Assembly: GCA_025355965.1 (NCBI GenBank)
Contig: JANXYR010000026.1
Location: 1-32,353, forward strand
Origin: Geobacteraceae bacterium
GTDB taxonomy: Bacteria; Desulfobacterota; Desulfuromonadia; Geobacterales; Pseudopelobacteraceae
Length of the DNA: 32,353 nucleotides
Direction: 5' to 3'
The notes beneath the pieces are model-generated. The model saw only the letters and a program-made list of their open reading frames with translations, was not told the DNA's origin and made no database searches. This document shows, in pieces, positions 11,128 to 32,353 of this stretch (the first letter of the stretch is position 1; every line of letters starts with the position of its first letter). Both the position numbers and the translations under genes were made by a program.

Positions 11128-12639
11128 TTGAGTAAAGCCAAAATTCTCATTGCAGACGATGAACATCTCATTTCCTCAATGCTAGCTTTAAACCTAGAAA
11201 AGGTGGGATATGTTGTTGAGACGGCTGCTTCAGGGGAAGAAGCCCTTCAGAAATTTTATGATTTCAAACCTGATCTGGTGATACTTGATCTTCATCTTCC
11301 CGACGCATACGGTCTTGATTTACTAGTTACGATGAGGGGGGCTGATGACTCTCTACCCTTCATAGTCATTACAGCGAATATTATGGCGGATTCCGCCGTA
11401 AACGCGTTTAAATTGGGCGCGGTCAATTTTTTTGGCAAGCCGTTCGAAATGGATGAAATTGTACTTTCTGTTGCTAAGTACATAAAAGATAAGCAAATAG
11501 AGGATGTTGAACCAAGCCCTACGGTACGTCGAAACGTATCGACACAAGATCAAATGATAGGTAATTCACCCAAGATGGTGGAAATTTCCAAGCTGGTTTA
11601 TGCCTGTGCATCAACTGACGCAAGAACGGTTCTGGTCACCGGAGAAAGCGGTACCGGCAAGGGATTGGTGGCACAGGCGATTCACCAGTACAGTGCACGT
11701 TCCAATGCACCATTCATAGCGGTAAATTGTGCGGCTATTCCAGAAAGTCTTATTGAAAATGAACTGTTCGGCCATGACAGAGGTGCTTATACCGACGCAG
11801 GTAAAAAACAGAAAGGGATTTTTGAGCAAGCCAATGGTGGAACTGTTTTTCTTGATGAAATAGGGGACATGCCACTCTCTATGCAGACTAAGCTGCTCAA
11901 TATCTTGGAGACCAAGCGGTTTCGACGCCTTGGAGGCGAAGCTGATGTTGAAACCGATGTACGCATCATTGCCGCAACGAATCAGGATCTTGTTAAAATG
12001 GTTGCGGATGGCCGTTTCAGGGGAGACCTCTATTATCGGCTTAACATGATAAATATCCGTGTTCCTGCTTTGCGGAAACGCCTTGAGGATATCCCGGCAA
12101 TGGTACAGTATTTCATTGAGCGCTTGAATGCTGAGTATGGGAGGAGGATAATAAAGGCCTCTACTGATGCTTTGGAGAAGTTACAAGCCTATTCCTGGCC
12201 GGGGAATGTCCGTGAACTCCGTAATGTTATCGAACGTGCGATGATGCTTGAGAAAGGCAATATGCTTACGCACTTTCATTTGTGCGAGGAACCCAAGAAG
12301 GATCGCCTCGCCACTTCACCTGAACCGCAGTCTTCCGATCAAACCGTTTTGACAACAGATAATGGGCACCGTTTTGCAGGTTTCCAATTGCCTCCTGAAG
12401 GGATCTCATTCGAGGAGGTTGAAAAACAGTTGATTGGCCTTGCCTTGGAGAGCGCCAGCGGTAATCAGTCAAAGGCTGCCAAAATACTTAAAATGAGCCG
12501 TGACACCCTACGTTACCGGATGAAAAAATATGGTATCTCTGAGTTCATGTATCAAGATCTTGACTGCGAACAGAAGGTTGCGGTTCAGATGAAGTCCAAG
12601 CCTGAAGGATATACGGTATTCAAATGGGCTAGCTGTTAA
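11128..12639 (+). CDS. NtrC-family sigma-54-dependent response regulator
   Basis: 503 residues. TTG start at 11128 with TAGGAGG at 11115-11121. Seen: receiver domain (about 4-118) with D54 (LVILDLHLPD), AAA+ domain (about 145-375) with Walker A GESGTGKG (172-179) and Walker B GGTVFLDEIGD, and a C-terminal Fis-type helix-turn-helix (about 440-490: NQSKAAKILKMSRDTLRYRM). The sigma-54 contact loop reads GAYTDA (219-224) instead of the usual GAFTGA. The F-to-Y change is common; the second G to D is less so. Known: phosphorylated NtrC-type proteins bind enhancers and remodel sigma-54 polymerase. Inference: it is paired with the haem kinase at 7482 and drives the -24/-12 promoters at 15178, 23517 and 27990. 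It stands alone between two terminators. Confidence 0.95.
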   Translation: MSKAKILIADDEHLISSMLALNLEKVGYVVETAASGEEALQKFYDFKPDLVILDLHLPDAYGLDLLVTMRGADDSLPFIVITANIMADSAVNAFKLGAVNFFGKPFEMDEIVLSVAKYIKDKQIEDVEPSPTVRRNVSTQDQMIGNSPKMVEISKLVYACASTDARTVLVTGESGTGKGLVAQAIHQYSARSNAPFIAVNCAAIPESLIENELFGHDRGAYTDAGKKQKGIFEQANGGTVFLDEIGDMPLSMQTKLLNILETKRFRRLGGEADVETDVRIIAATNQDLVKMVADGRFRGDLYYRLNMINIRVPALRKRLEDIPAMVQYFIERLNAEYGRRIIKASTDALEKLQAYSWPGNVRELRNVIERAMMLEKGNMLTHFHLCEEPKKDRLATSPEPQSSDQTVLTTDNGHRFAGFQLPPEGISFEEVEKQLIGLALESASGNQSKAAKILKMSRDTLRYRMKKYGISEFMYQDLDCEQKVAVQMKSKPEGYTVFKWASC

Positions 12640-13552: not shown

Positions 13553-13618
13553 ATGCCTGTGGATCTCATAACCTTCATCTTACCCCTCCGGAATGTTGCG
13601 TATGTATATCATGATTAA
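13553..13618 (+). CDS. possible 21-residue leader ORF overlapping the cytochrome start
   Basis: ATG 13553 is preceded by a good AAAGGGAG (13542-13549). The ORF ends with TAA at 13616-13618, across the start codons of the large cytochrome (13593, 13602, 13611), none of which has its own Shine-Dalgarno sequence. This could be a translational-coupling leader. The peptide (MPVDLITFILPL...) resembles nothing I know. It may be fortuitous. Confidence 0.3.
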   Translation: MPVDLITFILPLRNVAYVYHD

Positions 13619-14954
13619 AACATGGGCCATATCTTTTGCCATTGTATTTTTTCTTGGTAATGCCACGCCGTCTTATGCGGAAACATGTTTATCAACAACC
13701 TGTCATTCGGCTATCGGAGCTTTTAAAAATATTCACCAGCCTCTAAAGAATGGAGATTGCTCTTTCTGTCACCAGCAAACAGTTAAGGAACATCCTCTCA
13801 AGGGTGGAAAAAGTTTTGGGTTTATCGCCAAGCCTGCTGAGCTCTGCAAAAAATGCCACAATTCATTTGGGAAAAAGAAGGTGACACATTCTCCATTCAA
13901 GGAAGGAGAATGTGTCGCTTGTCACAACGCTCATGGCGCAAATGGACGTTTTCTCTTAGATGACAACGAGGACCGCTCCGGACTCTGTTTCGGCTGCCAC
14001 GACAGCGCCCCTTTCAACAAAAAGTACATACATGGTCCGGTGGCTACGGGGAGTTGCACCGTCTGTCACGACTCTCACCAATCAGATGTAAAGGGACTAT
14101 TAAAATCAGCTTCACGAGAACTGTGCCTTTCGTGTCATGACGATTTTGCCAAAAAGATGAATTCTGCAACAATAATTCACCCTCCCGTGAAAAAAGAACC
14201 ATGCACATCCTGCCACAATCCCCACAGCTCGTCGTGGCCCAATTTGCTGAAACAAGGGATGCCGGATCTCTGTGCAGGGTGTCACAGGGAAACTGTGAAG
14301 AAGATCAAAAATGCCAAAGTGCCTCACAAGCCGGTCACTGAGGGCAAACTGTGCAGTAGTTGCCATTCGTCTCACTTTTCCAAAGTAAAGGGCCTGCAGT
14401 TGTTTGATGATGAAAAAAACACCTGCCTTGTTTGCCACAGTAGCGACAAACTCGGCAAGCCCCCCCTTGCCAATATAAAAAAAGATCTGGAAGGGAAAAA
14501 GTATCTTCACGGGCCGATCAAAAAAGGCCTTTGTGGTGGTTGCCATTCCTCCCACGGGTCTGACTTTCCCCATATTTTGACCGGTAACTATCCGAGTGAT
14601 TTTTACGTACCTTTCAAAGAGGATAGCTATAGTTTCTGTTTGCGATGTCACGACAAGAATATGGTCAACTTCGCTGAAACCACCATCTATACAAAGTTTC
14701 GTAATGGCAGCAGGAATCTACACTATGTTCACGTCAACAACAGCAAAGGACGTAGCTGTAGGGCTTGTCACGAATCACACGCCTCCGGCGGGCCGAAACT
14801 CATCAACGCTGAGGGGACCAAATTCGGTGAGTGGCGCGTACAGAGCCGCTTCCAGATTACTGCCACAGGCGGGAGTTGTGCACCGGGTTGTCACCGTCGC
14901 TATGGCTATGATCGGGTCAAGCCGGTCGATCTGACCTTTCCCATAAATAAATAG
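13593..14954 (+). CDS. multihaem c-type cytochrome, doubled-CXXCH family, up to 15 haems
   Basis: 453 residues. ATG 13593; ATG 13602 and 13611 are in frame and give an equally good signal peptide (WAISFAIVFFLGN...SYA-E). Seen: 13 canonical CXXCH motifs (CSFCH, CKKCH, CVACH, CFGCH, CTVCH, CLSCH, CTSCH, CAGCH, CSSCH, CLVCH, CGGCH, CLRCH, CRACH), plus CLSTTCH (CX4CH) at the N-terminus and CAPGCH (CX3CH) at the C-terminus. The motifs alternate in paired units with CxxCH-x-SH/PH/AH and HGP/HPP spacing. This is the doubled-CXXCH fold, in which the next unit's His completes each haem. Known: such proteins are periplasmic or outer-surface electron carriers. It lies between the Sel1 protein and the tetrahaem cytochrome and likely passes electrons along the same route. 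Confidence 0.95.
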   Translation: MLRMYIMIKTWAISFAIVFFLGNATPSYAETCLSTTCHSAIGAFKNIHQPLKNGDCSFCHQQTVKEHPLKGGKSFGFIAKPAELCKKCHNSFGKKKVTHSPFKEGECVACHNAHGANGRFLLDDNEDRSGLCFGCHDSAPFNKKYIHGPVATGSCTVCHDSHQSDVKGLLKSASRELCLSCHDDFAKKMNSATIIHPPVKKEPCTSCHNPHSSSWPNLLKQGMPDLCAGCHRETVKKIKNAKVPHKPVTEGKLCSSCHSSHFSKVKGLQLFDDEKNTCLVCHSSDKLGKPPLANIKKDLEGKKYLHGPIKKGLCGGCHSSHGSDFPHILTGNYPSDFYVPFKEDSYSFCLRCHDKNMVNFAETTIYTKFRNGSRNLHYVHVNNSKGRSCRACHESHASGGPKLINAEGTKFGEWRVQSRFQITATGGSCAPGCHRRYGYDRVKPVDLTFPINK

Positions 14955-15328: not shown

Positions 15329-16129
15329 ATGAAAAAACAGATTATTACTCTTGTTGCAGTAGCTAGCATCGCAGCCGGATACACTATGGCCTACGCAGCT
15401 GCCGGTTCTCAAGGTGGCGGTATTGTTGGTTCAAAGCATGACATGAATCTTTTTCTAACTACTAATGGTGGAGTTAAGGACACTGATACTCGTACTTGTG
15501 CTTACTGCCACACTCCTCACCATGCTGCTGCTCCTGGACAGATGGTTGATGTGCAGGTTGGCGGTGCCACTGTTAGTTATGAGGTCTACTCTCCTCTCTG
15601 GAGCCGTACTTTGTCTAACGGTAACTATGATCAGTACGTCAGCGCCACCTTCAATCCTGCATTAGACGGTAAAGCCTACGATCCAATGATGGGCCCATCA
15701 CGTCTTTGCATGAGTTGCCATGATGGTTCCATCGCTGTCGACTCCTATTATGGGAAGACAGGGACAGTTGCACAAAGAGGCGATGACCTTATGAACTACT
15801 TTGGTTCGAACCACTTTGCTATTGGTGGAAGCTATGGTCTTGCAAATGATCACCCGGTTGGTTTTGTTTATACCGATATGCAGTCTGATACTATCAAATA
15901 TGAGCTGAAAGGCGTTACCTCGACATTTATTGGCGGGACGAAGTCTATTCTGTCAGTCTTGACTGATATTCCTGGTGTAGGTGCTGTTATGACTTGTGCT
16001 TCTTGTCATGACGTTCACAACGGTCCAGCAGTTCTTAACAAAACCCCTGCTTCCGGTCGTGGCTATTTCTTGCTTGCTTCGCAGACAGACTCAGCACTTT
16101 GCCTGTCGTGCCATGACAAAAACAAATAA
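15329..16129 (+). CDS. tetrahaem c-type cytochrome
   Basis: 266 residues. ATG 15329 with AAAGGAG at 15312-15318. Seen: a signal peptide (IITLVAVASIAAGYTMAYA-A) and four CXXCH motifs (CAYCHTPHH, CMSCHDGS, CASCHDVH, CLSCHDK). The N-terminal pattern GSKHDM...CxYCHTPHH...LWSR...CMSCHDG is shared with the first 110 residues of the dodecahaem protein at 21519 (SSKHNL...CIFCHTPHH...LWSR...CLSCHDG), so the two are related. Known: small tetrahaem cytochromes of Geobacter act in the periplasm or assemble into extracellular filaments; the sequence does not decide. It has its own sigma-54-type promoter, strong ribosome site and strong terminator, so it is likely an independently controlled and highly expressed transcript. 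Confidence 0.95.
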   Translation: MKKQIITLVAVASIAAGYTMAYAAAGSQGGGIVGSKHDMNLFLTTNGGVKDTDTRTCAYCHTPHHAAAPGQMVDVQVGGATVSYEVYSPLWSRTLSNGNYDQYVSATFNPALDGKAYDPMMGPSRLCMSCHDGSIAVDSYYGKTGTVAQRGDDLMNYFGSNHFAIGGSYGLANDHPVGFVYTDMQSDTIKYELKGVTSTFIGGTKSILSVLTDIPGVGAVMTCASCHDVHNGPAVLNKTPASGRGYFLLASQTDSALCLSCHDKNK

Positions 16130-16294: not shown

Positions 16295-17542
16295 ATGGGA
16301 AGTTGGTATTCGGGTTGTCAAACGGTTTTGGGAAAAAGTATGATTTTAATTGCTACGGTACTGTTATCTGCCAGTTTAACCGCGTGTGCCGGGAAGTCCA
16401 ACGTGAAAGAGGTCTTCTGGCCTCCGACCCCTGATTTGCCGCGTGTCCAGTTCCTGAAGGCCATCAAAGATTCTGAAGATGTTATTGAGAGTAAGTCGCT
16501 GTCGCTTGTCAGTCTTGGCGGTGGTGGCGAGGAGTTTGTGTCTATAGTCAAGCCATACGGAATCACTGTGGCCAACGGCAAGATCTACGTCTGTGATACG
16601 GTCCAAGCGGATGTACTGATTATAGATCTCCCAAACAAGAAGATGACGCGCCTTCCGGGCAACATCAATGCCGGTCGGCTGAAAAAACCGATAAATGTCG
16701 CCGTCGACGGAAAGGGCAACATTTTTGTGGCTGATACCTCGAGGCTCGAGGTGCTTCAGTATGCCCCTGATGGTAGCTATCTGCGCAGTATTGGCACCGG
16801 TAGGGAGATGAAGCCTGTTGATGTACGTGTAGATGAAGAATACATTTTTGTTCTTGATCACAGCACTAGTCAGATACTTATCTTCGACATTGTCAGCGGC
16901 GACTTCCTGAAATCCATTGGCGGTGGTGACGATCCCAAAAGGCGACTCTCAGGCCCGACCAATATGGCCAGTGACGGCAAAGGGGCGTTGTTTGTCTCTA
17001 ATTTCGGTAATGGCCGGATCGTCAAACTCGACCGGGATGGCAACTTTCTCATGGGGTACGGGCGGTTGGGGATCACCGTCGGTGAGTTTGGGCGTCCCCG
17101 CGGGATTGCCGTGGACAATGAGGGGTTTATCTACGTAGTGGATGCTGCCGCGCAACATGTGCAGATTTTTGATGATCAGATGCGTATTATGATGTTCTTC
17201 GGAGCTCCTGGTACACCCGGATCACTTAATATCCCTGCCGGTATTGCTGCTTCCACAGATAACCTTGATTTTTATCAGAAAATGGCGGCACCCGGCTTCA
17301 TTCTGGAAAAGGTAATCTTTGTGGTAAGTCAGATTGGAGATCATATGGTCAACATCTATGGTGTCGGTAAAAAGCAGGGAGTCGACTACGACGCTGATGT
17401 TAAGAAAACCATAGCAGAACAAGCTAAAAAGGCAGCGGAGATCAAGGGAAAGCTGCTCAAGGCCCAGGAGGAAAAGGAGAAAAACGCTGGGCAGGAACCG
17501 GTCACTGAAACTCCCGACACTGTTAAACCGACGGTAAAGTAG
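16295..17542 (+). CDS. NHL-repeat (six-bladed beta-propeller) lipoprotein
   Basis: 415 residues. ATG 16295 with GAGGAGGA at 16283-16290. Seen: a lipoprotein signal with lipobox LTAC (C31), the motif VFWPPTPDLPRVQFLKAI, then NHL repeats (about 80-345; VKPYGITVANGKIYVCDT, INVAVDGKGNIFVADT, PRGIAVDNEGFIYVVD). The C-terminal tail is Lys/Glu/Ala-rich (about 365-415) and probably helical. Known: NHL propellers are protein-binding platforms; in Geobacter-type loci they accompany multihaem cytochromes. It is first in a tight operon, with 8 nt to the next gene. The protein at 20247 is a paralogue with the same WPP start motif. Inference: an outer-membrane-linked scaffold of the conduit. Confidence 0.92.
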   Translation: MGSWYSGCQTVLGKSMILIATVLLSASLTACAGKSNVKEVFWPPTPDLPRVQFLKAIKDSEDVIESKSLSLVSLGGGGEEFVSIVKPYGITVANGKIYVCDTVQADVLIIDLPNKKMTRLPGNINAGRLKKPINVAVDGKGNIFVADTSRLEVLQYAPDGSYLRSIGTGREMKPVDVRVDEEYIFVLDHSTSQILIFDIVSGDFLKSIGGGDDPKRRLSGPTNMASDGKGALFVSNFGNGRIVKLDRDGNFLMGYGRLGITVGEFGRPRGIAVDNEGFIYVVDAAAQHVQIFDDQMRIMMFFGAPGTPGSLNIPAGIAASTDNLDFYQKMAAPGFILEKVIFVVSQIGDHMVNIYGVGKKQGVDYDADVKKTIAEQAKKAAEIKGKLLKAQEEKEKNAGQEPVTETPDTVKPTVK

Positions 17543-17550
17543 GCATAACT

Positions 17551-18162
17551 GTGAGAAGAATTTATCTGCATCTGAATCCGTTTTTTTGTTTAGTCCTACT
17601 GGTGTGCGTGGTTTGTACCGCCTCTGGTTGTGATCCTGTGAGCAGACATAAGGTGCTGACTTCCGTACTTGATGGCTACCCAACCCTGCCCCCGGTGGAG
17701 GAACTTTGCCGGGAACACGAGGAGAGGGCTAAGGCTGCTTGTCTGAACAAAACAAATGTGAACTCTTTGTTGCCTGTGGTGGAAACAGCTTCTGTGCATA
17801 GCCCTTACGAAGAGAAACGCTGTAATGACTGCCACAGAGAGAATAAGGGTGCTGGCGGGGGTGAGGAAGAGGGGTTGTTAGTCAAGCCACGGGAGGAACT
17901 TTGTTTCATCTGTCACAAGGATATCCTTGCCAAGCCTTTTCAACATGGCCCCGCAGCGGTCGGTGACTGCCTGGCCTGTCATCTCCCCCACGAATCAAAA
18001 TTCCCTTCGCTGCTCAATGTGAATAAAGAGGCCCTATGTATAAAGTGCCATGTGGAGCGCCGCAAGGCCGCGCGCATGCATGATCAGTTTGCAGAGAAAG
18101 GTTTGACTTGTGAAGGTTGTCACGATCCCCATGCCGGGAACACATACTTTTTTCTGAAGTAA
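17551..18162 (+). CDS. pentahaem c-type cytochrome lipoprotein
   Basis: 203 residues. GTG start 8 nt after the preceding stop, with only a weak TAGG upstream, so coupled translation is likely. Seen: lipobox TASGC (C27), then five CXXCH motifs (CNDCH, CFICH, CLACH, CIKCH, CEGCH) in doubled-CXXCH style with HGP and CHDPHA spacing. Two extra Cys (near LCREHEE and KAACLN) lie before the first haem. Known: in porin-cytochrome conduits a periplasmic or lipid-anchored cytochrome plugs the barrel from the inside. Inference: this protein plays that part for the beta-barrel encoded next. Confidence 0.93.
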   Translation: MRRIYLHLNPFFCLVLLVCVVCTASGCDPVSRHKVLTSVLDGYPTLPPVEELCREHEERAKAACLNKTNVNSLLPVVETASVHSPYEEKRCNDCHRENKGAGGGEEEGLLVKPREELCFICHKDILAKPFQHGPAAVGDCLACHLPHESKFPSLLNVNKEALCIKCHVERRKAARMHDQFAEKGLTCEGCHDPHAGNTYFFLK

Positions 18163-18201
18163 CCCCTTTAATCAGGGGCGTTGCCGGAGACCTACTGCTT
18201 C

Positions 18202-20247
18202 ATGAGCCAAGTCACGAGGAACAACACCATATTACAAAGCGCCGCCGTGATCATGAGGCCGTTGCGCGGTTTGCTTTTATGCGCTTTGGCAGCTTTAGGA
18301 GTGACACTGCTGCATTCACCTGCTTTGGCGGCCCAGTCCCGCTTCACCCTGCTGACCGTGAATGATCTGCGTCAATTTGTGACTGCCGGATATAACTTTC
18401 AGGAAAGTATGAATGAATATGGGTCAGGAAAGAATAACTCTACGCACAACGGTTTAAGCGAATCTTACTCCATTAGCGCCGAGTATTCTATAATGCACCC
18501 TCGCCTGCTGCGTGGCGATGCGAGCTTCAGCCTAGTTTTCAATCAGGACTGGGATAACAAAACCGTCCAAGGAAGCACTTCGGACCGCGCTAACCGTATA
18601 ACCTACAGCGTCAGCGGCATAATACTAGACCGAAAGCCTTATCCCATCAATTTTAATGTCCAGTCGATGTCCTCGACGATTCAGCCGCCCTTCAGCCGGT
18701 CTTATACAGTGGATTCTCAAGGTCAGACGGTATCAATGAGCTTAATAAACGTCTTCTTGCCAGTGGTCTTTTCGTATTCGAGGAACGAGTCTACTACCTC
18801 CGGACTCGTCGATGACATCAAACAGAACTTCCAGTCTGCATCGATAAATTTATCCCAAAAGGGCGGTAGCCTGAGTTCTACCACGTTATTTCTCAACCAG
18901 TCGTACGATCAGCAGACACTGCTTGGAACCGGGGCAGTAGACAGCCGCAACGAGTTCAGTGGTGATATAGCAAACACTCTGTACTGGGATAACTTGCGAG
19001 GGCTGCATCGCAAGTTTGGTACAAAATATATCTATCGTAATCAGAGCGGCAGCTCTCCTGGATCGCAATCTAACTTTGGTTCTGCCCTCGACTGGCAACT
19101 CGGCAAAGCCCTCGATAGTCGACTCACCTATGACCAGAGCAGTAACCAGAACGTGCTGAACAGCAACAACTTACAGAGGGCCTCCGGCACGCTAACTCAC
19201 AGATATCTAAAGAGTCTGCAGACGAATGTGGGTGGTGCTTTTTCGAAAGGGAATTACAAGGATGGTTCGGATGTCAGCACTTCCGGGAGTTTAAGTGTAT
19301 CTTATCTCAAGGAACTACCCAAAGATCTATACAGGGACAGCGTTATTGGCCTTGATTATGGGTATCAGTACTCGTTGCAGGACCGTTCGCGAACGGACGT
19401 TGTTCTGAACGTATTTGACCCGGTGCTGCTTAAAGGTACCATTTTTCCCCAGGATCTTGACCTGACAGCCGAAAATATTGATAGCAGCACGATCAGATTC
19501 TATAAAGACGCAGGACAAACGCTCCCTTTCACCGATTTCGATGTAGTTTTCTCCGGTGTTTTAACACGCATCCGGGTTAATTCGAATCCGGGCGTCACGA
19601 CTCTGTACCTGAAATTCTCCTATAAACAGAGTCCAAAAATAAAATATTCCACCTACGGGCATTCTATCGGTGGGCGTCTCGCTCTTTTAGGGAAAAGGCA
19701 TGTCCTAAATGTCAACTACAGTTGGAGCGACGTGCGGATCTTTTCAGGATCTGACGTCAACACAACCTTAGGTGGTAGCTCCTATCTTAAAGCTGGGATA
19801 AAGAGTGAACTCGAGCCTCATACCCTGTCGCTTGACTACTCCTCCAACAAGAATGTATTCCAGAGCATCCAGAATGTTGATGCAAGCTGGATATATGCCA
19901 AGAAGTTGGCTGACGCATCGCTGCTGACTAAGGCACAGGATCGCTATTCATGGTATTCCAACAGTTCCAATTCCGCTGCCAGTTCCCAGAGATGGGACAA
20001 CACTTTATTGCTTTCCTCCACCTACACCCAGCCTATCCTCCAGAATGTTAAGGGGACACTGACACTCGGTTATTTCAACACGATGACCAATTCTGCGAGC
20101 AGTAATAGATTTAACCTTTCGCTTAATATGGCGGGCAGCTTTGGGAGGACGGCCATCATTCTGGATGCTTCTTCAAACTGGAGCGTTTTCTCAGCCAGCT
20201 ACGCACGCAATCAATCAATTACCCTTAATGCCAGGAGGTCTTTTTAA
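18202..20247 (+). CDS. outer-membrane beta-barrel, probable porin of a porin-cytochrome conduit
   Basis: The frame opens at TTG 18181. ATG 18202 (GGAG at 18186-18189) is preferred, and ATG 18253 would also give a good signal peptide (LLLCALAALGV...ALA-A). 681 residues from 18202. Seen: after the signal, long alternating polar/hydrophobic strands with many Ser, Asn, Thr and Tyr, no Cys in the mature part, and a C-terminal Phe in ITLNARRSF, the usual beta-signal of outer-membrane proteins. Not close to any porin I can name. Its place between a lipoprotein cytochrome and an NHL lipoprotein, with multihaem cytochromes on both sides, points to an electron conduit. It ends in TAATG, shared with the next gene. 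Confidence 0.85.
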   Translation: MSQVTRNNTILQSAAVIMRPLRGLLLCALAALGVTLLHSPALAAQSRFTLLTVNDLRQFVTAGYNFQESMNEYGSGKNNSTHNGLSESYSISAEYSIMHPRLLRGDASFSLVFNQDWDNKTVQGSTSDRANRITYSVSGIILDRKPYPINFNVQSMSSTIQPPFSRSYTVDSQGQTVSMSLINVFLPVVFSYSRNESTTSGLVDDIKQNFQSASINLSQKGGSLSSTTLFLNQSYDQQTLLGTGAVDSRNEFSGDIANTLYWDNLRGLHRKFGTKYIYRNQSGSSPGSQSNFGSALDWQLGKALDSRLTYDQSSNQNVLNSNNLQRASGTLTHRYLKSLQTNVGGAFSKGNYKDGSDVSTSGSLSVSYLKELPKDLYRDSVIGLDYGYQYSLQDRSRTDVVLNVFDPVLLKGTIFPQDLDLTAENIDSSTIRFYKDAGQTLPFTDFDVVFSGVLTRIRVNSNPGVTTLYLKFSYKQSPKIKYSTYGHSIGGRLALLGKRHVLNVNYSWSDVRIFSGSDVNTTLGGSSYLKAGIKSELEPHTLSLDYSSNKNVFQSIQNVDASWIYAKKLADASLLTKAQDRYSWYSNSSNSAASSQRWDNTLLLSSTYTQPILQNVKGTLTLGYFNTMTNSASSNRFNLSLNMAGSFGRTAIILDASSNWSVFSASYARNQSITLNARRSF

Positions 20248-21314
20248 TGGAGCGTAAAATGTCCCCTTGTCTTGGGCGGTTATTTTTAATATTGCTAGCG
20301 TGGATTCTGGCGTTTGCTTTAATCTTAGGAGCTGCCGGCTGTGCCGTTACCCCTGAGTTGCATCAGACCCCCATGCTTGATAAAATTCTTTGGCCGCCAC
20401 CTCCTATGGAAGCCCGTATTTCCTGGGTAAAAGCCATTGTCACCCCTGCTGATGCCGGAATCCGCAAGGGTTTCTGGAGAAGAGTTTCGGACGCCGTTTT
20501 TGGTGAGACACAGGTGCGGATCGTGCGCCCCTACGGTATTCATGTCGATCCGAAAAAAAGGATTCTAGTTGCCGACACCGGAGGGCGGGTTGTCCATTTC
20601 ATAGATCCTGCAACAGGTCGGTATGAACTGGTGAGAGGGATCGCAGAAAGTGGTTTTGTGTCGCCCATCGGAGTGACCGAGGATGCGGGCGAAATGGTCT
20701 ATGTGACCGATTCTAGTGCAGGAAAGGTCTATCGCTTCAGACCAGACAATCTTAAAGTGATGCCATTCATCTCCGGTTTACAGCGCCCAACCGGCATAGT
20801 CTACAGCCCCCGTAACGATCTTATCTACGTCAGCGACACCGTTGCAGGGCAGGTTGTGGCCTTCACCACAGAGGGGAAGGAGTCTTTTCGCTTTGGAACT
20901 GCCGGTGAAAATGCCGGGCAGTTCAACCGTCCCACCGATTTAACGGTAGACGGACTGGGGCGTATATTCGTAACAGATGCCCTGAACGGCCGCGTCCAGA
21001 CTTTTTCCGGTAATGGTGCCCATCTGAAAAGCTTCGGTGAACAGGGAGATGCGTCAGGTAACTTTGCCAAACCCAAGGGGATAGCTATTGACAGCGAAGG
21101 GCACATGCATATCTGTGATGCACTCTTTGATGCGATACAGATATTCGATGAAGATGGTCAGTTCCTGCTAAGTTACGGCAGCAGGGGGGGCGGTAATGGC
21201 GAACTCTGGATGCCCTCAGGTATTTTCATCCGCGATGATATGATCTATGTTGCAGATACCTACAACAACAGAATCCAGATATTCCAGTACTTCCCGGAAG
21301 TTACAGGGAGATAG
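20247..21314 (+). CDS. NHL-repeat (six-bladed beta-propeller) lipoprotein
   Basis: 355 residues. ATG 20247 overlaps the barrel's stop by one base (TAATG), with AGGAGG at 20233-20238. Seen: lipobox LGAAGC (C32), the motif ILWPPPPMEARISWVKAI (shared with the NHL lipoprotein at 16295), then about six NHL blades (VRPYGIHVDPKKRILVAD, PTDLTVDGLGRIFVTD, PKGIAIDSEGHMHICD, PSGIFIRDDMIYVAD). It lacks the charged C-terminal tail of its paralogue. Known: such propellers bind partners rather than catalyse. Inference: the two NHL lipoproteins flank or cap the barrel-cytochrome complex. It is the last gene of the operon that starts at 16295. Confidence 0.93.
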   Translation: MERKMSPCLGRLFLILLAWILAFALILGAAGCAVTPELHQTPMLDKILWPPPPMEARISWVKAIVTPADAGIRKGFWRRVSDAVFGETQVRIVRPYGIHVDPKKRILVADTGGRVVHFIDPATGRYELVRGIAESGFVSPIGVTEDAGEMVYVTDSSAGKVYRFRPDNLKVMPFISGLQRPTGIVYSPRNDLIYVSDTVAGQVVAFTTEGKESFRFGTAGENAGQFNRPTDLTVDGLGRIFVTDALNGRVQTFSGNGAHLKSFGEQGDASGNFAKPKGIAIDSEGHMHICDALFDAIQIFDEDGQFLLSYGSRGGGNGELWMPSGIFIRDDMIYVADTYNNRIQIFQYFPEVTGR

Positions 21315-21518: not shown

Positions 21519-23156
21519 ATGTTGAACATTCTAAGGCCTGTTTCAACACTGATCGCGTCTTTGATCATTATGATCGCAGCCTCAGGATGGGCCGTCGCGG
21601 CAGGTATACTGAGCAGTAAACATAACCTGTCTGTATCGGGCCCAGGAACGATCAAGGCAACCAGTGAAGAGCGGGTCTGTATCTTCTGCCATACACCTCA
21701 CCACGCTAATCCCTTTACGCCTCTTTGGAGCCGCCCGACTAGTTCGGCCATCTATGACTTGTACGAGTCCACGACATTGGTGGCAAAGCCTGGGCAACCG
21801 AGCGGTTCTTCGCGCCTCTGTCTCAGCTGCCATGATGGGACCATTGCCTTGGGGGCCTTTTTTGGCACATCAGATTCCATCCCGATGGCGGGGGGCGTCA
21901 CAACCATGCCGGCCGACCGTTCCACCAATCTGAAAACAGATCTGAGAAATGATCATCCCATATCGTTTGCCTATAACGATGAACTTGTCTTGCTGAATGG
22001 CCAGCTGAACCCTCCTGGCAACCTTCTACGCAGCAAGGTCAGGCTTGAAGGGGGGGACATGCTTCAGTGTACATCATGCCATAACCCGCATACCGACCCG
22101 TACGGCAAATTTCTGGTTATGGACAACGCCGCTTCCGCCCTCTGCAAAACGTGCCACAATATAACCGGATGGAGCACTTCCACTCATGCCACAGCGCCCA
22201 CTACTGGTGCTGGGTGTATACTCTGTCATGTCAGCCACAATGCCGGTGGGCCTGCACGTCTGCTTAAGTTTGCCGCCGAGGAAGCTAACTGTTATCAGTG
22301 CCATTCACTCTCAGGAGGGGCCAAGGATATTCAGAGCGCCGCCAGCAAATTTTACAGTCACCCCATGGAGTCAACCACAGGTATCCACGACCCTGTGGAG
22401 AACCCGCTGACCGCTCAGAAACATGTCGAATGCAACGACTGCCATAACCCTCACCAAGCCAAGACAGCAACGGCAACGGCTCCTGCAGTGAGTGGACCCC
22501 TTGCAGGGGTAAAAGGGGTTTCAAGTAGCGGAGTAGTGCTCACCTCTGCCGCTACTAACGAGTACGAGGTCTGTTTCCGCTGTCATGCCGGAAACAGTTT
22601 TTATAATACTCAGACCGTTCTCAGGCAGATACAGGAGCTTGATACACGTCTGGATTTTGATCCGCTCAACCCCTCCTTTCACCCGGTGCTTACATTTGGC
22701 AAAGGCGTCCAGGTACCGAGTCTGCGTACACAGTTCAGCACAAGCAGCATGATTTATTGCACCGATTGTCATAATAACGATGACAGAAGTCAGGCAAAGG
22801 GTCCACACGGTTCAAATAATAAACATATTCTTGTCGATCGTTACGAAGATGACATCTATCCACTTGCCTACAGCGAGGCCAACTATGCACTTTGCTATCG
22901 CTGCCATGATCAGAATGTACTGCTTGATCCTATGAGGTCGGCTTTTCCGCACCATCAGAGCCATCTTGTAACTAACAAAGTCCCCTGTTCAGTCTGTCAC
23001 GATCCACATGGCGTGCCGCAGACCCGTGGAGCGACCATTAGCGCCAACGCCCATCTGATAAATTTTGATATCCGTTTTGTAACAAGCGGAACATATAACT
23101 CCGTTGCCAAAAGCTGCACAGTAAGCTGCCATGCAGCAAATCCTAAGTATTATTGA
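21519..23156 (+). CDS. dodecahaem c-type cytochrome
   Basis: 545 residues. ATG 21519 with AAGGGAG at 21505-21511. Seen: signal peptide (cleavage near GWAVAA, about residue 28), 11 CXXCH motifs (CIFCH, CLSCH, CTSCH, CKTCH, CILCH, CYQCH, CNDCH, CFRCH, CTDCH, CYRCH, CSVCH) and a final CTVSCH (CX3CH). The C-terminal CX3CH also ends the protein at 13593. The first 110 residues resemble the tetrahaem cytochrome at 15329. Several CHNPH / CHDPH units mark the doubled-CXXCH family. Known: this type is usually periplasmic or exported and carries electrons across long distances. Inference: the outer-face cytochrome of the barrel complex. Lies 204 bp after the operon with no clear terminator between, so it may be co-transcribed. 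Confidence 0.95.
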   Translation: MLNILRPVSTLIASLIIMIAASGWAVAAGILSSKHNLSVSGPGTIKATSEERVCIFCHTPHHANPFTPLWSRPTSSAIYDLYESTTLVAKPGQPSGSSRLCLSCHDGTIALGAFFGTSDSIPMAGGVTTMPADRSTNLKTDLRNDHPISFAYNDELVLLNGQLNPPGNLLRSKVRLEGGDMLQCTSCHNPHTDPYGKFLVMDNAASALCKTCHNITGWSTSTHATAPTTGAGCILCHVSHNAGGPARLLKFAAEEANCYQCHSLSGGAKDIQSAASKFYSHPMESTTGIHDPVENPLTAQKHVECNDCHNPHQAKTATATAPAVSGPLAGVKGVSSSGVVLTSAATNEYEVCFRCHAGNSFYNTQTVLRQIQELDTRLDFDPLNPSFHPVLTFGKGVQVPSLRTQFSTSSMIYCTDCHNNDDRSQAKGPHGSNNKHILVDRYEDDIYPLAYSEANYALCYRCHDQNVLLDPMRSAFPHHQSHLVTNKVPCSVCHDPHGVPQTRGATISANAHLINFDIRFVTSGTYNSVAKSCTVSCHAANPKYY

Positions 23157-23603: not shown

Positions 23604-23661
23604 GAAATAAATCTTGCGCACAAAAAAATGATCATCAATCACATCTAAAGGAGATCAAAGA

Positions 23662-26600
23662 ATGAGCAAACGAATCCAGAAAAAGTCTGTTCTGCTGGCC
23701 TCACTGGCTGTCGGACTGGCATGCGGATCGGCATTTGCCGCTACGCAGCACAGTGGTATGGTGCTGCGCGACAGAGCCGGTGTTGCAATTACGCCTGCCA
23801 CCAAAAATAACGCCTTCAGTATGCAGGGCACCTGTTCCTTCTGCCATAACGGCACCACCATGAACACAAAAACTCCACCAACAGCTCTTAAAACCTATGC
23901 CCAAATCGAGCAGCACAACTTTCACGCTCAACTTGGCGCCAACGAGTTCCGTGGTTTCAACCCTTATAACCCCGATTCAACTGACGCTTGGCGCGCCGGC
24001 GCTGCTGCCCCCGGCAAAAGCTGGGTACAAAGCCCCGGTCACTTTGGATCTTGGTGACCACCCTCTGCTCGCCAGTTGGCGAGAACTTATTTAGACGGCG
24101 GAGCACCGATTTACGATACAGCAGCAGCAAAATCGAATGACCCTGCATTTACCTCTTTTACACCGTTTGATTTTACTACGGGCTTTACAAAAAAAGCTGA
24201 CAACTCCGTTGCCGGCGAGATGCGTGACTGTGGCGAGTGCCATGTAGGTGGCGGCTTCATGCAGTATTACACATCCTCAGTAACCACACCGGTAGATGCC
24301 TCGGCCAAAAAATTCCAGTATGACCCGGCCAACCGTACTGATTACCGTGACGCCAATTTCGGCGCCTCCGTAAACACGTTCAATACCTTTATTGATATCT
24401 TCGGTCTTGACGGTCTCGGTTTCGAACTACTTAATCATCAAGGCGTTGCCCGTGATCTCAACCCTGCCAGCCCTACCTACGTAGGTCCTACCTATGCAGC
24501 CAAGAAAAACGATTTTGTCCAGACCGGCGCCCTGGAGATGGACTGCCTCATGTGCCATCTAGATGGTTACAGTTGGGATAAACGTCGTGATGCAGTTCGC
24601 GTAGGTAACTTCGATTCGTCCCGCGTTGCCGGTGCCGGTCTCGGTACGCCTATTCAAAACACATATTCAGCTGCAAAAAATGTTGTGTACAACAACAACG
24701 TAGTATTGGCTGGCGGCAACCTGACCCTCGACGCCAATTTTGCGGCGAAGATCGTCGCTCAACCAAAATCCTCAAACTGCGCATCCTGCCATCAGGCAGA
24801 ATACCAGGTTGACTGGAAGAAACGTGGTGAAATCTGGAAATCTGGTAGTGAAGTACATTACGGTATCGGCTGCATGGCCTGCCATGAGCGTAAAACAGGC
24901 GCGGTTGTTGGTACAACCGGTGTTGTAACTGAAGCAGCTCTTGGTCAGTGTGATCCGGCTAAAGGGGCCACATCGCCTTTTGACGCCATGTGGAATCCGC
25001 TGGACGGCGTTGCCTTCAAAAAATGCGAAGATTGTCACACTCCTGCAACCACTCCTACGTGGACAACTTACGGCGCACCTAACGCAGTACAGGCTCACGG
25101 AGCCGCCGGACTCAACGCAATATTGCTGCAGGCACCAGGTGTGAAGAACGGTGTTGCTACAAAGAGTCACATCGATATCATCGACTGCACCGCCTGCCAC
25201 ACCAAGAACAAAGCCGGCATCACCGGTGGCGCTTTTGTTGACGGTACCGGAACTGACCTGCAGGGCCGCGTAGCTCTGCATGACGTTCCTTTCGTAGGCA
25301 AAGACATGTCAAACGGTATGGCTCTGCACTGGCTGGGTGGCAAGCTTTATTCCGCCAACCTGCTGACCTCATTCTTTTGGCGCGATATGAACGACTATAA
25401 CTATGACGCCAATCAGGATGGTCGTCCTGGCGGCATGGATGCGCTGTTGCCAAGTCATGTTGCCAAGATTAACTTTGATAACGGTCAGCTGAAAGCTCTG
25501 GCTGCCGACGGCATTATCAACACCGCCGAAATTACTGCCCGTCAGGCTCTGCTCACTGCAAACATTGCAGCACAGACAGGCGTACCAATCCCTCTGAAGA
25601 GCGACGCTGTTACACCAAACTTTTCACCACGTATCTCTATGCTGACCGTTCCGTTCAAAGGCACTCACAACATCGCTCCGGCTGACGTTGCCTGGGGCAA
25701 GAATGGCTGTACTGATTGTCATGGCGCTAACAAAGGTTTTTACAACGGCGCATATCCGATCAACGGCAACCTCGCTTGGACATTTGGTCCTAACCAGCTG
25801 GCTACCTTCACCAAGGTTAACGGAAAGATGGACGCAACCGAAGGTCATCCAAACATCATGGACAAGCATGGCAAGCGTTCTGTTGCTTTCCAGCTTTTCA
25901 ATCCAGCTCCTGCAGGCGCTGATCTTGGCGTCCTCAGAAACATTGACCGCAGTGAAGTAATCTATGAGCCAACCTTCAAAGCTCAGAACACTGCTCTGAC
26001 AACCTTCACCGCTACTGCTATCACTGGCGGCGCAGCTGCAGGCATCACTAACTCCAGCGCTGATGGTGGCGTATCAACCAAAGGCCACATCCTGAAGATT
26101 GACGTCAAGCCGACCGCCGCTTCTCCTGACACAGCTATCGTCAGCAGAACATGGGCTGTAAATGCTGAGTGCACAACCATTGCTCAGGTCATCACTGCCA
26201 TGGGCGTATTCGCAACAGATGCAAATGCTTTTGGTTTCATTATTACTGACGGCGGTGCCGGTAACATCGTTATCACCCCGACCGGCACGAATGTAATAAG
26301 AATCAATGCTGCTGCAACTGACTTCGGACCGTTCGGCCTTGGCGCGGCAGCATTCGTTGCAGCCCCGCAGACCGGTGTTATTACCCAACTGCCATATGCT
26401 GGCCGTGCAACATGGGTTACATACCTTGACAGCATCACTGAAGCTAACTCCGGTATCGGCGTGAAGCCGTTTGCCAACTTCTCAACAGCAGCCTCAGTTG
26501 ACAAAGATCCTCGTGCTCCTGGTGTTCAGGTTTTCACAGGTACAGTTTTGCCACTGGTAGCTAATGTTGCAAAGCCAGGCGTAGTTACCTACAACTGGAC

Positions 26601-27063
26601 CCTCACTGAGAGAACTGGACTTGTCGATAATCCTGCGACTCTTACAACCGACGAAGCATTCCTTGTTACTCCTCTTCCAAGCGGCATAAACTCAACCGTG
26701 ACCTTCGCTACCCCAGGTGTGAAGATCATCGAACTGAAAACTGTCGATGCGGAAGGTAATCTTTCCAGGAAAACACAAGAAATTAACGTAATTGATGTAC
26801 CAGCTAACGTCATTGCTTGGACTGACAATGCTGGCGTAAATGCTGGAACGCTTGACCTTGTGAATTTGCCAGTCGCTAACAACAAGATTAAAATCATGTG
26901 GGGCGATGGCAATTATGAGTACGTAACCACGAATACTGCTGCATCAGTTCTTGCTAAGGCTCATACCTACAGCACTCCTGGAAGCAAGTTCGTACAGGTT
27001 TACGTGTACATGAGTGGTGTTCAGAAGGGCTACTTCAATAAGACCATCACTGTAGCACCGTAG
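23662..27063 (+). CDS. selenocysteine-containing octahaem c-type cytochrome 1 (UGA at codon 132 read as Sec)
   Basis: 1133 residues when TGA 24055-24057 is read as Sec (U132); a standard reading would give a 131-residue fragment and a separate ORF. ATG 23662 has AAAGGAG at 23647-23653. Seen: signal peptide (about 1-27), eight CXXCH motifs (C58, C190, C295, C373, C404, C455, C509, C683), and U132 between haems 1 and 2 in GHFGSW-U-PPSARQLA. A beta-rich C-terminal half follows, ending in a PKD-like module (about 931-1133). The part after the TGA has no start with a ribosome site and no signal peptide, yet carries seven of the eight haems, so it must be translated with the first part to be exported. 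A SECIS-like hairpin follows the TGA. The gene at 28203 has the same layout. Known: Sec needs SelB, tRNA-Sec and SECIS. Inference: Sec may be a catalytic residue or ligand near haem 1. Substrate unknown. Confidence 0.92.
24055..24083 (+). promoter_or_regulatory. UGA-Sec codon and SECIS element, selenocytochrome 1
   Basis: TGA at 24055-24057, 10 nt, then stem CTCGCC (24068-24073), loop AGTT and stem GGCGAG (24078-24083). There are 16 nt between UGA and the loop, and G is the second loop base. This matches the known bacterial SECIS form (short stem, G in the first two loop bases, loop about 16-37 nt after UGA). Confidence 0.9.
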
Positions 27064-27097
27064 TTAACTAGAACTACCTGAAACAATGCAATGCAAT

Positions 27098-27135
27098 AGA
27101 GCCATGGGGAAATTCCCCATGGCTCTAATTTTTTA
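27098..27135 (+). terminator. rho-independent terminator after selenocytochrome 1
   Basis: 14-bp perfect stem AGAGCCATGGGGAA / TTCCCCATGGCTCT (27098-27111, 27113-27126) followed by AATTTTTT. Very strong. It shows the transcript covers the whole frame through the TGA. Confidence 0.95.
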
Positions 27136-28202: not shown

Positions 28203-31200
28203 ATGAAAAAACATTGTAATTCTAAAATGTCTCTTCTGGTGAGTGCCTCAGCGGTCGCCGGTCTTGCCATAGGCGCAACAGTCGCCTTGGCAGCCCATCC
28301 GCCGATCCAGCTATTCACCTATGAAGAAGTTGCAGCTCAAATGAACGGCACTGTAGTTCCTGCGAACCCCTTCAGTGCTCCCACACAACAATTTCCTGTT
28401 ATGGTTGATCCGAATACCAAGCAGGGTATGCCCTACAGCCCTAAGCAGACATGTACTGGCGGCGGCAATCTGGCCTGCCACTCTACCGGCAATACTGCAA
28501 ATCTGAAAAGCTATGCCGACATGGCCGATAAATCATTCCACTCCTCACTTGGCTACAATGAGTGGATGGACAACTCCGACAGTGGCCTGTTCGTTGAAGG
28601 TGGCATACAGACCGGCTTGAATCCGCAGAAACCATGGCTGCAGTCCCACGGCCATAACGGCAAGTGGTGAGTCCCCTCTCTCCGCCAGGTGGCGGATCTT
28701 CAGAAACCAAATGCAGGACCACAAGCAGGCAAAAACGTTATATATCCCGGATCTATGGCTGCAGCTCAAAATCTCTTCCTTAACGGCGGCACAGGCTCCG
28801 ACGGCAGAGCTTACCCTAAAGTCGACATGTCGCTTTGGGACCAGGCCACCATGTGCGCTACCTGCCACGTTGGCGGTACGTTCTATGAGAAAGACCGTAG
28901 TGGAGTACGTCTCCCTATGAAAACAATGATGGACATGGGCGCGATGCTGGCTGGCCAGCCATTTGTAAACCCATTCACCTCTACTGTTTGGGAACAATAC
29001 ACCGCGCAAGGTGCAGATACATCTTTCACCACCCTTGCTCCATGGATCTATCCGCAGTACAATGGCAACAATCCGGCAAAAGGCGCGATGTTGGCACCAT
29101 TCGGTTGGGGCCAGGCAATGACCATGCAAGACCCGAACACTGGTGCTTCTATGCCGGTTGTCGCCAAGCAGTTGATGATGCCTAACGTCAAAGAGATGGA
29201 TTGCCTCTTCTGTCACTTCAAAGGGTACGACAACGTAATGACTTCTGTCATGGTTCAGGCCGGTAGCCTCAACGCCGCACCTGGAGCTGGCGCGGGCCTG
29301 TTTGATATGACCCCCGGCAGCCCAACCTACATGGGCTTCAACCCCATGAACGGAAAAACAGCCTTCACCAGAGCCGGCGCAGCATTCGGCCCTTACTCTT
29401 CCATGCAGTTTGTTTCCCTCACACCAAGCTTCATCGACAATATCAAAGCGAAGCCTGATTCCAACAACTGCATGCAGTGCCATGCAACAGGCACAATGAA
29501 GGATTTCCCTGAAATGTTCGGCGTAACCGGCACAAGCTCCGGCTTCCTGTCGTCGGCACCGATGATCTACGATCCAGCCAATGCTGTTGGTCCTCTCGGC
29601 AAGCGTATGACCGCTTACGACATCAACTCTGTATGGCTTTTCAGTGGGACGTCGCCTGTAATCAACTTCGGTAATGTTGCAGCAAACATGATGCCCGGCC
29701 TGAACTATCCGTCGGCGATGGGCGCATCATTTTATGGCAACTCAATTGTTGTTGCTGGTTCTCCTGGCTACCTCGGTGGCGGCAACAATGCGATGACCGG
29801 TCCACTCTACTATGATAATGGCACCGCTGCATCCATGATGGATCAGAACGTGCAGAAGCGTTCCGTGCCGGTCTTTGCCCGCGCTGAATGGTTCAAACGT
29901 GGCGACGCATGGCAGGATGGACAGGATGTACACAGCAAATTCGGTTGTGCCGGTTGTCACTTCACCGGTGATTCAGTTAACAAGAACCAGTGCGACCCAG
30001 GCCGCGGTTTTGACATGGCCAGCACGATTCAGGACGGCGTACCAGCCATCAGCAAAAAAGGTGTAGTAAAAGGTTACGATGCCGCCGGCATGCCTATTCT
30101 TGCTGCCAACGCCGCTGAAGTATCCGCTACTATCAAACAGCACGACACCAGAAACACAGTCAAACGGTGCGAATTCTGCCACGTAACTGGTAAGGACTAC
30201 TACGGCCAGACCATAGACACCCTTGGCGCACCAAATCCAACATCACAACACCAGGCCTACGGCTTAATGGCCAATAACGTCCAGATCGCCGACAAAATGG
30301 ATCCTCATGGCACCTACGGCGGCATGGGCATCTCTAAAGTTACCAACTTCACCTCGCCCAATACAAAACTCGGTATTGGTAACCACCTCGACGTCATGGA
30401 CTGCACAGTATGTCACGTGCAGAAAATAAGCATGGCAGTTCGTGCTCTCGATGCCTCCAGTGGTATGCGTTACCCATCCGTAGTCGGTACCAATCCTGCT
30501 TCGGGAATGATGGGACTATTTGAAGACCCAGCACCGGCTGGTTTCAATGCAGCCATGGTTACTAAGATGAACGGCATGTATGCTGGTATAAACGGCATGT
30601 TCGGTTACACCGGTGGTGAACTCCCCGGCACACTGGGTAAAGCTGGTTCATCAATGGTTGATCTGCCTGGTCCTGGCTACCAGAACATGATCCCTGCTGG
30701 CACACACGTAGTCGGCAGCAAACTCCAGGAGTGGAAACCACTCACTATGTGGCAGAAACTCGGCAACATGGAAGCTCCTTTGACAGCCTCATTTACCGGC
30801 TCCAGCAATGGTGGCCAGAGCCAGATGAACTTCCGTCGTAAACTTTACCTTGCAAACTCGATCTCGGCACTGATCTGGAACAACACAGATCCAGCTATCG
30901 ATGCTAACGGCGACACAGCTAACGGTGGTTTGCTGATTGGTAATGGTGACGAACTTGGCCGCCCAGTAAAAGCATCATTAAACGGCTACACTGACATCTT
31001 CGACGGCGATGCGCCAGACAAGAACAACACCCAGGGTTACGGCGAGCCGATCTACGATCCGTGGATCATGCGTGACCTCAAAGCAGGTATGAACTTCGGA
31101 CCGTCAGCTCTTTCCGTAATCTCAGTCGGCTTCGGCGGCCCTAGTGCCCCTGTAGTTGGCAATACGTACCAGAGTGCTTATGACGCCAATGGCCTTTTCA

Positions 31201-32353
31201 CTGGCGCATGGAAATATGCCAGCGTTTGGAGCGGTGCAGTAGTCTTCACTGAGCCAGCTGAAATAGCTAATTACAAAGCTTACCGTACCGCAACAGGTTC
31301 GAAGTCTTGGGCCGGTACTAAGATGTCCGTTGTCGGCGCACCATTCATGGTCACCCATGGCGTAAAACGTGTTGCTACCTTTGCAAAAGGCAAGTTGTGC
31401 GCAGATTGCCACTCCGCTTCTGCAGAATTCTTTACAGGCGGCTTCAACATGGTCGGCACAGCTATCCCTGCCGATGCTACATTCAACCCAACCTCACAGC
31501 TTATGCCACAGAATGCCAGCGGCGATTTTGTACGTGTTCCAGGCCTTCCTGGTTTCACTTCCGCCAGCAACCTGATGGAGCGTCCGCTTGAGCCATTCCG
31601 CATCAAGGGATATGCAAGCGATATCGCTACCATGTTTGAAGGCTTCAACAAACTTGGTCAGCCACGTACAGCTACATTCGAAGGTACTGATGGCACCTAC
31701 AAATGGACCAAGGATCTTGAGCGTGCCGATGTTATGTATCCTTCCGAAGATGGTGCGATCTACTACACGATCAACGACTGGAATACAGACGGTACACTCA
31801 AAGTTGGTGCTGTTCCTAAGACTGGTGCACAGTATGCAACCTACTTGAATACCCTGGGCACTCCTGCAGCTTCTGGTATCGGTGTGAAGCCGTTTGCCAA
31901 CTTCTCAACAGCATTCTCAGTTGACAAAGATCGTCAGTCTCCTGGCGTTCAGGTTTACACAGGTGCTCCTGTGGCCCTGATAGCTGATGTTGCACAGGTC
32001 GGTGGTGTTGTTAAATACGACTGGATCATTTCTGAGAGCAGTGGACTTGTCGACAATCCTGCAACACTTACCGTCGACGAATCCTATATTACTACCAAGC
32101 TCAGCGGCATAAACACAAGCGTGACTTTTACAACTCTTGGTAAGAAAGTCATCGTTCTGAAGGTTACCGACGAGGAAGGTAATGTTGTATCAAAAACACG
32201 TGAAGTTGAAGTAATTGCTCCACAAGCTAGCGTCATCACTTGGGTTGACAATGCCGGTGTTAATTCCGGAGCGCTTGGCCTCACAAATTTGCCACTCCCT
32301 AACAACAAGATTAAAATCATCTGGGGCGACGGCAATTATGAGTACGTAACCAC
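28203..32353 (+). CDS. selenocysteine-containing octahaem c-type cytochrome 2 (UGA at codon 156 read as Sec), partial
   Basis: ATG 28203 with AGGGA at 28191-28195. The frame runs to the right edge with TGA 28668-28670 as its only stop (1383 codons visible). By alignment with its paralogue about 45 residues are missing. Seen: signal peptide (about 1-30); haem 1 as C84-x7-C92-H93; U156 in GHNGKW-U-VPSLRQVA; then CXXCH at C218, C334, C423, C582, C656, C734 and C1066; and a PKD-like C-terminal module from about 1225. The order and surroundings of the haems match selenocytochrome 1 one for one (CxxCHVGG, CLxCHxxGY, HxDxxDCTxCH). The region after the TGA has no own start or signal peptide. Internal segments are rich in Met, Gly and Asn. 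Known: same Sec requirements as above. Inference: an exported redox enzyme or terminal electron-transfer cytochrome. Confidence 0.92.
28668..28696 (+). promoter_or_regulatory. UGA-Sec codon and SECIS element, selenocytochrome 2
   Basis: TGA at 28668-28670, 10 nt, then stem TCCGCC (28681-28686), loop AGGT and stem GGCGGA (28691-28696). Distances and sizes are identical to those after the TGA at 24055. The outer two pairs are T-A, C-G here against C-G, T-A there, so they covary. Confidence 0.92.

Follow-up and report, generated by a model that had tools for sequence, protein, structure and literature searches.

The reading frame at positions 23662-27063 of a 32,353-nt stretch of Geobacteraceae bacterium DNA (contig JANXYR010000026.1 of assembly GCA_025355965.1, positions 1 to 32,353 of the forward strand; hereafter, the window) encodes a predicted multihaem c-type cytochrome and is divided by one TGA, which raises the question of whether this codon ends a short gene or is read as selenocysteine (Sec). 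Our analysis suggests that the region is one predicted octahaem c-type cytochrome gene whose UGA is very likely decoded as Sec by means of a hairpin, with the selenium likely at an active site resembling that of octahaem tetrathionate reductase (OTR), and we put the probability of this reading at about 0.8. It builds on the UGA, the hairpin and the conservation of both, on the Sec machinery genes, and on an OTR-like predicted fold, a retained lysine (Lys387) and a shared operon, all of which were observed.

The reading frame interrupted by TGA

The gene, designated copy 1 (23662-27063, forward strand), comprises 1133 residues when read via the TGA: 131 residues, the TGA at 24055-24057 (codon 132, the predicted Sec codon as judged from the window sequence and the codon counts in homologues), 1001 residues and a TAG stop, with the TGA as the single interruption. 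The signal-peptide-like start is preceded by a putative ribosome-binding-site-like AAGGAG at 23649-23654. Eight CxxCH haem motifs are present, one upstream of the TGA (residues 58-62) and seven downstream, and the C-terminal part (26569-27060, bounds approximate) is PKD-like, with a profile similarity at 968-1057 to collagenase PKD domains. The motif W-U-x-P-S-x-R-Q spans the TGA. The first-pass annotation of this DNA had described the same sole break, the same distribution of haem 1 and haems 2-8 over 131 and 1001 codons, and a hairpin, CTCGCC-AGTT-GGCGAG, beginning 10 nt past the TGA; each of these was confirmed.

The arrangement could also be read as a short and a long cytochrome gene side by side, with translation genuinely ending at the TGA and the hairpin acting as a weak terminator or having arisen by chance. 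Public annotation makes this split, and TGA is an ordinary stop elsewhere in the window, where it ends three of 15 genes. The earlier statement that no usable start follows the TGA stood in part: an in-frame TTG at 24076, which sits within the hairpin, and an ATG at 24220 exist, but all such starts found skip the conserved PPSARQ. A terminator-like stem-loop of 14 bp was found beyond the final stop (27097-27127); the hairpin also passes a loose terminator scan.

The codon at the site and the protein around it

Homologues were collected from whole genomes translated through stop codons, which yielded them in 28 of the 141 genomes examined in the order and in 43 of the 277 in the class; a scan of named genomes (33 loci) and loci gathered by place added further ones. 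A profile in which the column of the site was masked matched 145 domains covering it, and these gave 89 distinct 120-nt contexts, in which the codon at the site was TGA in 81, a Ser codon in six, TGT (Cys) in one and GAT (Asp) in one. Homologues with UGA or Cys at residue 132, a check proposed earlier, are therefore both on record, the natural Cys occurring in a Desulfocapsa metagenome-assembled genome (MAG; L095). A narrower count requiring the motif W.xPS.RQ, which drops relatives without the motif, gave TGA in 77 of 79 contexts. Among the 66 database proteins matched by the profile, three full-length ones have C at the site (P0021, P0028 and P0030), where C may stand for U.

In a protein alignment of 65 sequences, out of 74 long ones among the 79 contexts, G129, W131, P134, S135, R137 and Q138 were invariant (65/65), and the codons of P134 and S135 differed among relatives though the residues did not. 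All 29 public N-terminal fragments, including the window's own, end at the W ahead of the TGA, and nearly all the long database entries matched begin after the site, as does the Geobacter sulfurreducens entry P0027. Homologues do not consistently end at the TGA; the conserved protein runs on in the same frame beyond the annotated ends. A sequencing error is likewise not indicated, as most of the independent genomes have the TGA too.

These results make two adjacent genes highly improbable, since P134, S135, R137 and Q138 would be invariant, with varying codons, and yet untranslated; moreover, the homologues with Cys (one), Asp (one) and Ser (six) are uninterrupted through the site, and the predicted fold spans both parts, before and after the TGA. 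Decoding of the UGA as another amino acid, a sequencing error or a pseudogene is more improbable still, given that 81 of the 89 contexts, drawn from many genomes, have TGA, that the Sec machinery is complete and that other window genes terminate at TGA. Two adjacent genes, code reassignment and sequencing error were thus considered and rejected, each on the evidence against it.

Some members depart from the common pattern. Two distant ones (L115:4334 and L116) keep the TGA and carry three additional residues past the motif (WUPPSSDSSQLAR). The copies in Geotalea toluenoxydans (G050) are disrupted by additional stops or frame breaks, and one copy in another genome (G164) has two TAG codons besides the TGA. 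A copy with 60% identity lies on a contig of a Thiobacillaceae MAG (L086), and this placement is possibly a binning error.

A conserved hairpin after the TGA

The bacterial selenocysteine insertion sequence (SECIS) is a hairpin that follows the UGA immediately on the 3' side; one of its first two loop positions is a G, and approximately 16-37 nt separate the UGA from the loop. The hairpin of copy 1 (24068-24083, forward strand, 6 bp, 10 nt after the TGA) is a SECIS-like candidate that fits this rule, with 16 nt from UGA to loop and a conserved loop G, the loop beginning with AG in all 52 stretches compared. The comparison set consisted of 52 distinct stretches out of the 77 TGA contexts, so that six pairs gave 312 cells. 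The six pairs were kept in 92.0% of the cells, as opposed to at most 70.5% for slid versions, and 39 cells were changed on both sides compared with a shuffled mean of 12.8, none of 500 shuffles being as high. Examples of the stems are CTCGCC/GGCGAG, TTCGCC/GGCGAA, CTCGAC/GTCGAG (Ala to Ser) and TTCGGC/GCCGAA (Ala to Pro). Two further measures did not separate the hairpin from shuffled sequence: three pairs showed a double change, a number attained in 69 of 500 shuffles, and six further pair types occurred, a number attained in 435 of 500. Codon freezing was also detected: seven of 100 four- and six-fold columns (20 genes) held a single codon in every row, and four of the seven were 136, 139, 140 and 141. 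When folded as a single sequence, copy 1 was mildly unusual only (z = -1.80).

Selenocysteine machinery and its linkage

The source genome has selA, selB and selD together with two tRNA-Sec genes (anticodon tca); all of selA, selB, selC and selD, which the first-pass annotation had named for a search, are present. Among the 43 family-bearing genomes, at least nine have selB no more than 15 kb away from a family gene (the source genome G000, and G080, G087, G117, G009, G023, G054, G118 and G271), and a tRNA-Sec gene adjoins the operon in G114. selB is distant but on the contig of the family gene in G038, G046, G047, G051, G174, G176 and G248. A class-wide listing placed selB in 40 of the 43, and a separate look added G087; G247 was unlisted, and none was seen in G050. 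Taken together, the conservation of the TGA, the covarying hairpin, the motif across the TGA and the Sec machinery strongly support, at the level of sequence, the proposed reading of this TGA as Sec.

On contig C28 of the source genome, selB and a tRNA-Sec gene (L131:10919-13080) lie about 4 kb from a third Sec cytochrome gene (copy 3), and the second tRNA-Sec gene is on contig C50, some 2.4 kb away from selA. Two selB copies each were observed in G023, G044, G054, G114 and G117, one of which is beside the cytochrome genes in G023, G054 and G117.

A predicted OTR-like active site

As modelled, the core of copy 1 matches the fold of OTR (1SP3) and retains the counterpart of Lys153 in OTR. This residue, Lys387 (codon at 24820-24822, forward strand), is present in 65 of 65 aligned proteins, and the acidic residue three positions before it is kept, as in OTR. 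Lys153 of OTR is reportedly, from the work of Mowat in 2004, the ligand of haem 2. In addition, a true OTR encoded at L181 (G215:C33:15256-16518; 601 bits to TIGR04315), in a genome taken as Malonomonas rubra, has a TGA exactly at the position of Cys64. The first-pass annotation, which had identified the octahaem cytochrome, had left the OTR-like core, the operon and the linkage to selB and selC unrecognised.

A mechanism can be proposed as follows. SelB would bind the hairpin and deliver Sec-tRNA to the UGA, and Sec132 would occupy the place of OTR Cys64, beside haem 2. The protein would be exported, with electrons supplied by the operon cytochromes and a predicted outer-membrane barrel. The selenolate would then attack or bind a substrate outside the cell, one of oxidised sulfur, selenium or the like, for reduction by haem 2; our first guess is a sulfur compound, for example tetrathionate or polysulfide. 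With slightly less than even confidence, we extend this proposal to an extracellular selenium-enzyme family. Its members would be large surface cytochromes with a PKD tail, in which Sec may have replaced the catalytic Cys of OTR next to a haem ligated by lysine; they would form the terminus of a trans-envelope electron conduit and act as reductases of sulfur or chalcogen compounds outside the cell, and the module would spread together with its own selB and tRNA-Sec.

Several observations weigh against the reading of copy 1 as an OTR-like Sec cytochrome. Copy 1 scores 20 bits against TIGR04315 (26.9 bits for the L117 type), the cut-off of which is 375, and its N-terminal stretch with Sec has no sequence alignment to OTR, so that the correspondence of Sec132 with Cys64 rests on chain order. 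The first full-length structure model was poor, and the good model has a confidence of about 65 at Sec and low TM-scores to 1SP3 (0.26 and 0.40). As for the hairpin, 38 of the 52 stretches pair at all six positions, ten lack the outermost pair only, one lacks two, and three require both a shift and a bulge; sequences folded singly give weak results (z from -0.74 to -2.15 in nine sequences), the hairpin region of copy 3 folds otherwise when alone, and an Rfam scan gave no match. The Ser-at-site loci (L091:4580, L185:1515, L186, L187, L189 and L190) form one paralogue group with W-S-P-x-Y-N-R-Q, in which PS is lost, in genomes also holding TGA copies, and the Asp codon (L094:22087) belongs to a fourth Malonomonas rubra paralogue beside TGA paralogues, with the hairpin pairing kept. 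Since six of 89 contexts have Ser and one paralogue has Asp, Sec is not required in every family member. Finally, selB is widespread in the class (234 of 271 genomes), and therefore its co-occurrence with the family by itself proves little.

Some of these points would also suit a Sec that is inserted, yet does not act in OTR-like catalysis, serving in an electron-transfer protein as the axial ligand of a haem, as a metal-binding group or as a protective one. Sec132 cannot be aligned by sequence with Cys64, Ser and Asp paralogues exist, and the related MmcA is described as an electron conduit in an excerpt of PMC11024163. On the other hand, copy 1 has Lys387 and the acidic residue three positions earlier in common with OTR, and the true OTR at L181 has its TGA at Cys64; we regard a non-catalytic role as rather unlikely and prefer the reading with selenium at an OTR-like active site.

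Operon and neighbouring genes

Upstream of copy 1, on the forward strand, lies a row of genes for multihaem cytochromes of 453 and 266 residues (13593-14954 and 15329-16129, in the shared operon), an NHL-repeat protein of 415 residues (16295-17542), a multihaem cytochrome of 203 residues (17551-18162), a 688-residue predicted outer-membrane barrel (18181-20247; judged from its position, signal peptide and final Phe), an NHL-repeat protein of 355 residues (20247-21314) and a multihaem cytochrome of 545 residues (21519-23156). This row is entire in L084 and L085, and parts of it were found in many other relatives. With respect to a porin-cytochrome conduit, the operon is shared among relatives, but the barrel candidate has no family match, the 688-residue protein giving none in Pfam or NCBIfam. 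An NtrC-like response regulator, named from its sequence (11128-12639, forward strand), lies upstream of the operon and adjoins it in several relatives too. A histidine kinase at 7482-9008, also upstream, contains CxxCH in its sensor part and shows similarity to a periplasmic haem-type sensor domain.

Other copies in the source genome

A second Sec cytochrome gene (copy 2; 28203-32353, forward strand) is truncated by the contig end and contains eight haem motifs, the first of which is CX7CH. Its in-frame TGA at codon 156 (28668-28670, forward strand), a predicted Sec codon, lies in the same motif as that of copy 1 and is followed by the hairpin CTCCGCC-AGGT-GGCGGA; the identity between copies 1 and 2 is just 26-27% across the haem part. 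Copy 3, on contig C28 (L131), likewise has the TGA. Near-identical C-terminal PKD-like domains were observed at contig ends (window 31812-32353, L131:14-271, L132:3-473 and L133:14-271). These repeats are probably where the assembly breaks, and L131, L132 or L133 may carry the continuation of copy 2.

If the Sec reading is true, selenium chemistry would be placed beside a c-type haem where a respiratory electron wire ends, in metal- and sulfur-breathing organisms. It would also reveal genes cut in two by public annotation, in which the N-terminal fragments (29/29) stop at the UGA, and would offer a reason for selB and tRNA-Sec adjoining cytochrome operons in some genomes. Cultured hosts (Geomonas, Malonomonas rubra and Geotalea) put such a cytochrome within experimental reach.

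Comparison with known systems

The first-pass remark that no established selenoprotein family is a multihaem cytochrome was not borne out. ExtKL of Geobacter, with five haems, had been put forward by Fujita in 2007 as a predicted cytochrome containing Sec, for which the authors found no SECIS (PMC1914089). An excerpt of a 2026 review lists ExtKL, a GSU2204-family protein and a Sec-bearing TIGR04315 protein, WP_331457571.1, annotated in GenBank (PMC13188914). Copy 1 resembles ExtKL as a predicted multihaem selenoprotein of Geobacteraceae whose annotation is likewise split at the UGA. Membership in ExtKL was rejected, as NF040886 gave no match to copy 1 at E values up to 0.1 and none over its cut-off in the genome; no NCBIfam model tested takes copy 1 over its cut-off. 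In the open-licence literature, the scope of our search, the present family was not found described. Multihaem selenoproteins had thus already been predicted, and the present family, as read from its sequences, would be a variant for which we found no description.

MmcA of Methanosarcina (TIGR04314) is OTR-related, and copy 1 scores 43 bits against that model (cut-off 250); MmcA differs in being archaeal and in having seven haems, with no Sec reported in the excerpt of PMC11024163. WP_331457571.1, compared by its table entry alone in the excerpt of PMC13188914, is a similar case, with Sec in a protein of the OTR family.

OTR itself reduces tetrathionate, nitrite and hydroxylamine, according to an excerpt of PMC4484225. 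Copy 1 differs from OTR in its larger size, inserted stretches and PKD-like tail, in that most members have Sec instead of Cys, and in belonging to an operon of cytochromes and a predicted barrel. The two are alike in having eight haems in the same order, in the predicted fold and in the lysine 10 residues past the haem-4 His. Each also has a single conserved position for a thiol or selenol in the interval that separates haem 1 from haem 2, held by the invariant Cys64 in OTR and by the predicted Sec132 in copy 1.
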